Origin: Pseudohongiella sp.
GTDB taxonomy: Bacteria > Pseudomonadota > Gammaproteobacteria > Pseudomonadales > Pseudohongiellaceae
Direction of reading: 5' to 3'
DNA: 64,000 bases
Assembly (NCBI RefSeq): GCF_011050365.1
Contig: NZ_DRFV01000009.1
Span: 124,001-188,000, forward strand
Positions 28,691-40,062 of this stretch are shown in pieces (position 1 is the first letter of the stretch; the number at the start of each line of letters is the position of its first letter). The notes beneath the pieces were generated by a model. It did not search any database, was not told where the DNA came from, and saw only the letters and a program-made list of their open reading frames with translations. A program made the position numbers and the translations under genes.

Positions 28691-28739
28691 GCCTTGTGCA
28701 ACCGTCGAGGGGAGTTGGCATCTCGCCGACTTGCACGAG
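28691..28739. repeat. side hairpin of palindromic element copy A
   Basis: CCTTGTGCAA and TTGCACGAGG form a near-perfect inverted repeat with about 30 nt between them. A similar pair (GCCTTGTG / CTTGCACGAGG) precedes copy C at about 37660-37707, so this looks like a left-hand module of the element. Confidence 0.5.
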
Positions 28740-28742
28740 GGA

Positions 28743-28920
28743 CGGGGATCGGAGGGAACGCTGGGAACCAATCAGGCCATGTTTTCTTCTTTGCCCCTGC
28801 ACCCGATCAGCGGGAGGACTGTCTGAGTCCCGAGCCCGCGGAGCGAGCGAGGTCGAGTTCCGCCCCGCCGGGTGCAGGGGCAAAGAAGATGGTCGGTTCA
28901 CAGTGTCCCTCCGATTCCCG
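28743..28920 (+). repeat. palindromic element, copy A
   Basis: Non-coding nested palindrome filling most of the gap after the FkbM gene. Outer arms: 28743-28757 and 28906-28920 (14 of 15 pair). Then CCAATCAGGCC (28768-28778). Inner arms 28785-28805 and 28869-28889 pair perfectly over 21 bp. The core 28816-28830 is GGACTGTCTGAGTCC, itself a 5-bp hairpin, followed by GAGCGAGCGAGGTCGAGTTC. Copies B and C (37437-37635, 37734-37868) share the core and flanks but have different arm sequences. Small open frames across it are not convincing genes. Confidence 0.8.
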
Positions 28921-28996
28921 GCCCGCCCTCGATTAAGATCCATGAACTTTCAGCTGGCCGGGCCGCACTCAAACGAAGCCGGCAGTTTCAATTCTG

Positions 28997-37393: not shown

Positions 37394-37436
37394 CCTGTTC
37401 CCTCCGGTTCCGGTTGCTTCTTTTTAGAGAGCGGGC

Positions 37437-37635
37437 CGGGAATCGGAGGGACACTATCAATGCTTTCGTTATAGAGCGGCCCGGGCAGTGGGTATGAGAC
37501 TCCTGCCCGACCGCCTCCTTTTGTCATTCACCGGGCGGTGCGGAACTCGACGTCGCGGCTGTGCCGCTCCGGACTCAGACAGTCCTACCGCTTTTTCCGG
37601 TGAATGCCAAAAGGAGAAACGCGGCCTGATTGGGC
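37437..37635 (-). repeat. palindromic element, copy B (inverted)
   Basis: Same family as copy A, on the opposite strand. Outer arm 37437-37451 matches copy A's right arm; inner arms 37515-37534 and 37597-37616 pair 19 of 20; core 37571-37585 is the reverse complement of GGACTGTCTGAGTCC; 37623-37633 is CCAATCAGGCC in reverse. The inner arms differ from copy A at many positions while remaining paired. Starts about 40 nt after the acnB stop. Confidence 0.8.
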
Positions 37636-37759
37636 ATGAGCCTCATACCCACCACCCGAGCCTTGTGAATGAATTCCGAGTTCTGTCGCCGCAGGCTTGC
37701 ACGAGGGCCGGGTAGCGGGTAGCTGAATTCAGCCCAATCAGGCCGCGTTTTTCCTTTTG
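37608..37759. repeat. 28-bp inverted repeat joining copies B and C
   Basis: 37608-37635 and 37732-37759 are reverse complements at 27 of 28 positions. They contain the left flanks of copies B and C, which therefore face each other across 96 nt. Confidence 0.85.
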
Positions 37760-37868
37760 CGGATCACCCGATCAGCGGGAGGACTGTTTGAGTCCCGAGC
37801 CCGCGAAGCGAGCGAGGTCGCCCGTTTTTTAAATCATAGGCGCCCCGCCGGGTGATCCGTGAAAGGAA
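37734..37868 (+). repeat. palindromic element, copy C
   Basis: CCAATCAGGCC (37734-37744), inner arms 37751-37770 and 37849-37868 pairing at 18 of 20 with the two exceptions being G-U type, and core GGACTGTTTGAGTCC (37781-37795). Instead of GAGTTC after the GCGAGCGAGGTCG stretch there is a ~20-nt T-rich insert (37821-37840). The right side continues with GGTCGGGCTG as in copy B. Confidence 0.8.
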
Positions 37869-37955
37869 GCGGTCGGGCTGAATCTGCTACCCGCTGGCCG
37901 GCCCGATCTCAAAAAGGGCACACCCGCTGGCCGTCCGGCACTCAATCCAAACCAG

Positions 37956-39979: not shown

Positions 39980-40062
39980 TGTAAAGGTAAAAGAAAGGGG
40001 ACGGAGGAGTTTATCTCCTCCGTCCCCTTTCTTTCCTTTCTTTTACCCGCCCCCTTTACTTC
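39980..40062. terminator. long palindrome between the sugar dehydrogenase and pepN, likely bidirectional terminator
   Basis: A 17-bp perfect stem, 39993-40009 with 40015-40031, loop TTTAT. Further outward GTAAAAGAAAGG and CCTTTCTTTTAC also pair if a CTTTC duplication is looped out. Purine-rich left arm (AAAGGGGACGGAGGAG) and pyrimidine-rich right arm. The type resembles dispersed palindromic repeats found in many gammaproteobacteria. Confidence 0.75.

Follow-up and report, generated by a model that had tools for sequence, protein, structure and literature searches.

Long bulged hairpins with covarying arms in Pseudohongiella: possible mobile repeats working as folded single-stranded DNA

The window analysed here is a stretch of 64,000 nucleotides corresponding to positions 124001-188000 of contig C9 of the Pseudohongiella sp. 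genome G000 (3.63 Mb, 17 contigs). It contains three imperfect hairpins of 185-200 nt at two loci located about 9 kb apart, one beside a tRNA-Arg gene (copy A) and one downstream of the aconitase gene (copies B and C, which form one inverted pair). The features are the following:

28730-28740, plus strand: 5' flank motif CTTGCACGAGG of copy A
28739-28924, plus strand: hairpin A, with outer arms 28739-28757 and 28906-28924 and inner arms 28785-28805 and 28869-28889
28770-28774, plus strand: AATCA bulge of hairpin A
28816-28830, plus strand: GGACTGTCTGAGTCC within the tip of hairpin A
37432-37455, minus strand: remnant adjoining hairpin B, 24 nt that match the 3' outer arm of hairpin A without a mismatch
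37478-37662, minus strand: hairpin B, left partner of the inverted pair, with outer arms 37478-37508 and 37632-37662 and inner arms 37515-37534 and 37597-37616
37696-37706, plus strand: 5' flank motif CTTGCACGAGG of copy C
37705-37904, plus strand: hairpin C, right partner of the inverted pair, with outer arms 37705-37726 and 37883-37904

The original prediction had described three palindromic copies with a fixed core in this window, and all three were recovered. The core GGACTGTYTGAGTCC occurs three times, each time with 0 mismatches although up to 2 were allowed, compared to 0.12 occurrences expected, and none of 100 shuffled sequences reached three. The inner-arm counts were likewise reproduced, with 21/21 positions paired in A, 19/20 in B and two non-matches of the G-U type (T-G and G-T) in C. 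The hairpins themselves are longer than first described, because the outer arms pair and covary too, and the segment 37432-37455, initially taken as the start of copy B, does not belong to hairpin B but is what remains of another copy. Upon folding, none of 200 dinucleotide shuffles was as stable as the native sequence for any of the three hairpins (z of -10.5, -7.9 and -8.0 for A, B and C, respectively). Two further copies, D on contig C8 and E on contig C17, bring the host genome to five copies, all divergent from one another.

The hairpins share a common anatomy. An outer arm of about 25-30 bp, free in sequence, encloses CC-AATCA-GGCC, in which AATCA is bulged opposite GGTCGG or GGCCGG; a short asymmetric loop follows, then an inner arm of about 20 bp whose sequence is mostly free, and finally a branched tip that is conserved and contains GGACTGTYTGAGTCC as well as the stretch GCGAG..GGTCGAGTTCCGC. 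The tip is reduced to GCGAGGACTGTYTGAGC..GCGAGTTCCGCAGCGC in distant relatives, and the weakest matches outside the family have little beyond this reduced tip in common. A flank motif GCACRAGG, related to CTTGCACGAGG, was found in 41/158 upstream and 0/158 downstream flanks of the genus copies. The tip of hairpin C carries a short extra segment that is also present in the A-type hairpins of genome G024. Extra segments of about 75 nt or more were seen in the tips at L153:5268-5449, L119:1788-1970, L154:393-580 and L147:1765-2021; several end in CTGGAGGAA, L147 seems to have two in tandem, and they are possibly another small element inserting into tips.

A covariance model detected hairpins in 28 of 137 genomes of the family, including 15/15 of the genus Pseudohongiella. 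In a sample of the order searched with stricter filters, 23/390 genomes carried hairpins, 14 of them outside the family. Among named contigs, 69 stretches were retrieved, labelled as gammaproteobacterial groups or, for one MAG, as Proteobacteria. A phage or plasmid origin was rejected: copy A had no blastn match in phages or plasmids and the pattern had none in viral contigs. In the literature, we found no work joining Pseudohongiella with palindromic elements, and when strings of the element were searched, only the 10-mer CAATCAGGCC matched among the matches listed.

Covariation was assessed against the fold of copy A on a sequence-only MAFFT alignment of 160 genus copies (about 31 effective sequences), drawn from the best 150 rows of the covariance-model search. 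Paired cells amounted to 86.5%, compared to 72.3% in 100 shuffles (maximum 73.1%) and 34-42% when the partners were slid, and double-change cells numbered 1052 versus 329 in the shuffles. When all column pairs were ranked by corrected mutual information, helical pairs accounted for the whole of the top 10, 16 of the top 20 and 20 of the top 60. Between the five host copies, 36/73 predicted pairs showed a double change. The compensatory change and constrained fold put forward by the original prediction are supported, and the outcome it had named as refuting, a lack of covariation among genome-wide copies, was looked for and did not occur. At ten variable stem pairs, selected for a major-base frequency <0.7 and a Watson-Crick share >0.6, identity between copies averaged 36% (median 30%); within copies 89% were Watson-Crick, a figure partly selected since the pairs were chosen on this share. 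The variable arm positions are near saturation with change, while bulge, tip and pairing are kept.

G000, G020, G024 and G030 carry copy D at an orthologous site, with flanks 82-86% identical. Even at this fixed site the differences in arm sequence come in pairs, and the outer arm of G020 shows a paired block of several bases. Given the covariation and these paired differences, the arms are neither a single decaying ancestral sequence nor a plain copy of one.

The mismatches tolerated in the arms are strongly asymmetric. In the inner arm, 106 were G-U and 15 A-C among 141 copies (20/161 copies lacking a recognisable bulge motif were excluded), a count inflated by shared descent, as two alignment pairs alone contain 35 and 34 of the G-U. 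When 28 representatives of <80% identity were considered, the ten variable pairs gave 15 G-U versus 1 A-C. Over all aligned positions the ratio was 339/129; the outer arm gave 148/94, positions beyond the true arm included, and about 123/37 (hand sum) within 30 positions of the bulge. A further count over all pairs (135/61) was set aside, since some constant positions fall out of register when the fold of copy A is applied. Were the arms maintained by nothing but cruciform DNA or template switching, one-sided transitions should yield G-U and A-C equally. The inner-arm excess thus indicates that the strand reading CCAATCAGG is the one kept foldable. It leaves the molecule undecided, since RNA and single-stranded DNA both tolerate G-U or G-T pairs.

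The genomic context bears on this point. Neighbouring genes were called for 85 single copies; 48 of these are flanked by convergent and 5 by divergent genes, and in tandem contexts the foldable strand is sense in 13 cases and antisense in 19. These counts come from a crude ORF picker, and as L197 and L390 overlap in one genome, they include up to four copies twice. The surroundings of copy A gave no promoter-like site, and its hairpin gave no terminator-like match. As transcription does not select the strand and no such promoter-like site is seen, the balance tilts to single-stranded DNA, which we infer to be the working molecule rather than RNA. On sequence grounds, the data are consistent with strand-specific recognition of a bulged single-stranded hairpin.

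The same observations weigh on the view that the hairpins are a multi-copy structured RNA or mRNA 3'-end element serving the host, for example a terminator or 3'-end protector at convergent genes. Compensatory change at the fixed site of copy D, the one-strand G-U excess and the location at gene 3' ends, with more than half of the singles between convergent genes, all speak for it. A sense-oriented 3'-end element is nevertheless not favoured, the foldable strand being antisense as often as sense in tandem contexts, and promoter-like and terminator-like sequences are missing at copy A. Neither does a known RNA family account for the hairpins: nothing but tRNAs reached a gathering score in Rfam, two microRNA hairpin models attaining E values of 1e-4 to 1e-5, far below their gathering scores. 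The structured RNA option of the original prediction thus keeps covariation and strand preference on its side and finds no Rfam counterpart. Since near-identical units also occur at many sites in other genomes (see below), we consider a host-serving RNA unlikely.

To describe how the hairpins are arranged, 117 loci with hits were compared. Neighbours within 1.3 kb numbered 38, of which 36 are in -/+ arrangement, with the 5' ends inward, and 2, both in one genome, are -/-; the gaps between neighbouring hairpins measure 83-1159 bp. At 79/117 loci, the stretch retrieved contained one hit. In a related genome (JADFIJ contigs), near-identical units made of a left and a right hairpin separated by a 131-132-bp spacer were found on five contigs; their flanks are unrelated wherever enough sequence beyond the unit is available. 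A Porticoccaceae genome gave 30 matches, and one arm set is common to the 23 matches listed; in part of the upstream and downstream flanks, inverted ends surround GGTTGGTGCCA..TGGCACCAACC. These two genomes thus contain near-identical copies at unrelated sites, whereas the copies of the host genus are divergent. The earlier statement that the family is unlike a plain spread of one sequence consequently holds within Pseudohongiella and fails for the two other genomes, which show just such a spread.

Within the host clade, three arm types (named after A, B and C) recur at the aconitase and tRNA-Arg loci, their order changing between species. The pairs are B/A in G024 (at both loci), B/C in G000, C/A in G020 and C/B in G030, and the tRNA locus bears a single hairpin of type A in G000 and of type C in G020. 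The C/B pair of G030 could be the G000 unit turned round. None of the three types is a good match for the copies of G033 or for the copy that G030 has at the tRNA locus. Presence also varies between species. At the aconitase locus, a pair is found in 5/15 genomes (G000, G020, G024, G030 and G033), and in the other 10/15 the best match to model R1 was only 15.5 bits (E 0.066); in G028, the match to this locus ends after 96 bp, apparently at the contig end. At the tRNA locus, the same five genomes carry copies, of 12 genomes from which the locus was retrieved. Comparison of G022 with G026 as a possible empty site left a 113-bp residue, and comparison of G032 with G027, at the DUF3626 site described below, looks like partial hairpin loss of unsettled direction; neither comparison yielded a clean empty site with target duplication.

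Some of the inverted pairs enclose genes. Those with long spacers contain a DUF3626 gene, located at one and the same site in G027 and G028, or else an SfLAP gene or a 117-aa ORF that is uncharacterised, and pairs with gaps of 314-793 bp contain ORFs without recognised family or of doubtful reality, most of which were not scanned. Among the ten -/+ pairs with gaps of at least 314 bp, no transposase was found in the six ORFs put through Pfam, the small ORFs of four pairs being left out. A 415-aa Transposase_mut ORF in L385 is located between two pairs and inside neither.

The DUF3626 site is the gap between the ABC transporter and PPDK genes, and its content changes between genomes. Small ORFs between two minimal hairpins take the place of the gene in G025 and G029; in G000 and G031 hairpin sequence is present but no gene, and G023 has further content with an assembly gap within. 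In G032 the DUF3626 gene is found without intact hairpins, showing that the gene can remain without them. The minimal hairpin reads AACAATCAGGCG..CGCCGTT, the AATCA bulge being also present by direct reading, and its pattern gave 32 matches in 9/15 genomes with 1 mismatch allowed, compared to 0 for the reversed control. Small ORFs with an EEIEQVSGG motif resembling double-glycine leader peptides are enclosed by two minimal hairpins at L316:2370-2594 and L343:1699-1944, and had no match in Pfam or NCBIfam. The 32 pattern matches represent a second family of hairpins, smaller, free in the sequence of their arms and with a ACAATCAGGCG..CGCCGTT-like tip, which was seen in intergenic regions of L171, L174 and L315/L316. 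In P. nitratireducens, HigB/HigA toxin-antitoxin genes are located between two same-strand hairpin copies (L197:634-1209).

The alternative content at the ABC transporter-PPDK site fits gene-carrying pairs, without proving them, and the enclosed genes may be mobile. One may imagine a cassette system unlike integrons, in which inverted pairs of folded-strand hairpins, moved by a putative enzyme, would take up single genes and swap them at hot spots, this gap among them, each hairpin keeping its shape and renewing its arms. We hold this to be rather unlikely; the cargo would comprise DUF3626, SfLAP and the small GG-motif ORFs, possibly with HigBA as well.

We then considered Y1 transposases, as the original prediction had listed REPIN/RAYT repeats as an option and suggested a search for such a gene. 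The host genome has one Y1_Tnp match, on another contig. In the genus, a Y1 gene is present in 15/15 genomes, as are the hairpins, and two types were distinguished. The long type (322-345 aa) is an open frame of 326-345 aa in 14/15 genomes; it reads DQYH in place of the HUH motif in 13/13 copies read, and the one copy scanned ends in a Bac_DnaA_C domain (Pfam). Because the first histidine of the motif is replaced by Q in all of these copies, this protein looks domesticated and is perhaps non-catalytic. In G000, a Y1 transposase-like protein with a Bac_DnaA_C tail is encoded at L017:1468-2436 (contig C2). The short type (235-261 aa) is found in 8 genomes; its motif is NHAH in L074, the only copy read. 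It scored 73.1 bits against the REP-associated transposase model, for a cut-off of 80; it was not found in G000. In 8/8 loci it is flanked by another palindrome, GGGG[AT]CGGAG, and model R1 detected 0 hairpin copies in the 24 Y1 loci of the genus. Since the cognate gene with matching flanks that defines REPIN/RAYT systems was sought and these flanks carry other palindromes, membership is not supported, and the idea of a REPIN of the local RAYT was rejected. No GTAG or CGTC tag common to the five aligned copies was seen on reading that alignment. A perfect 20-bp palindrome, AAAGAAAGGGGACGGAGGAG / CTCCTCCGTCCCCTTTCTTT, lies at 39990-40034 of the window, and its core GGGGACGGAG also flanks short RAYT-like genes of related genomes.

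That a Y1 protein of the genus, be it the DnaA-tailed long type or the short REP-type, binds the hairpins or moves them in trans appears quite improbable. The hairpins are bulged, strand-specific, REP-like and arranged in inverted pairs, and recognition of REPs, which is strand-specific, involves a bulge according to the available text of PMC8266576; Y1 gene and hairpins co-occur in all 15 genomes, which within one genus is weak evidence. The available part of PMC6006769 reports DnaA-tailed subclass 2.1 proteins with no REPs found nearby, a subclass that the long type matches; as a binding partner in trans, the long type remains a lead. Against this stand the hairpin-free Y1 loci, the palindromes that the short type has of its own, its absence from the host genome and the altered motif of the long type. 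No moving enzyme was found for the hairpin family in the analyses made.

Comparison with known systems helps to place the family. Integron attC sites act as folded single strands with variable stems and conserved extrahelical bases and are tied to single genes, all of which is attC-like in the present hairpins. However, attC sites stand in head-to-tail arrays and carry other conserved boxes, whereas 36/38 of the close neighbours here are inverted and only 2 are head-to-tail. Mobile insertion cassettes and cargo-bearing MITEs have inverted ends around genes without a transposase, these ends deriving from a known insertion sequence; inverted ends around genes are found here too, but they are long hairpins of unknown parentage. 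As far as the available text of PMC3733652 and PMC8266576 goes, REP/BIME/REPIN elements with RAYT (TnpA-REP) and TIRtrons are alike in the conserved bulge, the single-strand and strand-specific logic, the inverted dimers, the location at gene 3' ends and a short conserved 5' flank motif, here in part of the copies. REP/REPIN palindromes measure 20-40 bp, compared to 185-200 nt for these hairpins, whose arms are not conserved in sequence and which none of the 24 Y1 loci contains. By the tests made here, the hairpins therefore resemble REPs and attC sites as strand-specific, bulged, folded sites and are members of neither.

Taken together, these results lead us to favour, with a probability of roughly 0.55, mobile, shape-conserved, non-autonomous hairpin repeats acting as folded single-stranded DNA. 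The working form would be one folded strand, a long imperfect hairpin interrupted by the AATCA bulge and by another asymmetric loop and ending in a branched, REP-like tip, in which the arm sequences would be free to vary provided they pair. Such hairpins would often stand in inverted pairs with their 5' ends facing, mostly at gene 3' ends and occasionally flanking a gene. A putative HUH-type or tyrosine-recombinase-type enzyme, with folded single-stranded DNA as its substrate, would recognise bulge and tip and act in trans to move hairpins or pairs. In the periods separating bursts of spread, selection on the fold would keep sedentary copies paired, probably assisted by template switches in which one arm serves as the model for the other. 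Some observations count against this reading. Orthologous, sedentary copies remain paired across four species, which a purely parasitic repeat would not need, and the location at convergent gene ends would also fit a role for the host. Moreover, neither an enzyme nor a clean empty site with target duplication was found, and the host genome holds just its five divergent copies.

For the pairing of sedentary copies across species, selection is probably the main cause, in view of the G-U asymmetry and the persistent bulge, with template switching probably helping; copying as a hairpin, raised by the original prediction, is thus a possible contributor. Template-switch-maintained hairpins, in the available text of PMC8794818, likewise show paired multi-base changes in long stems, in contrast to the strong G-U over A-C asymmetry and the preserved asymmetric bulge found here. 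That the covariation is mainly mutational, replication template switching copying one arm onto the other and keeping long inverted repeats perfect under little selection, appears very unlikely. In its favour, the mechanism is published (PMC8794818, in the text available), the outer arm of copy D in G020 differs from its orthologues by a multi-base paired block, and a tip segment is common to hairpins with different arms. Such copying should, however, be strand-symmetric, against 106 to 15 in the inner arm, and should erase the AATCA bulge, which persists.

Mobile repeats kept as folded single strands would be a naturally occurring mobile DNA site in which shape, and not sequence, is conserved. 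The family also bears on the respective shares of template switching and selection in covariation, which is usually taken as proof of functional RNA. If the enclosed genes move, the hairpin pairs would constitute a route of single-gene exchange in marine gammaproteobacteria that is invisible to standard annotation. More generally, our reading opens to test whether, beyond IS200/IS605, REPs and attC, selection on a chromosomal repeat acts on folded single-stranded DNA.
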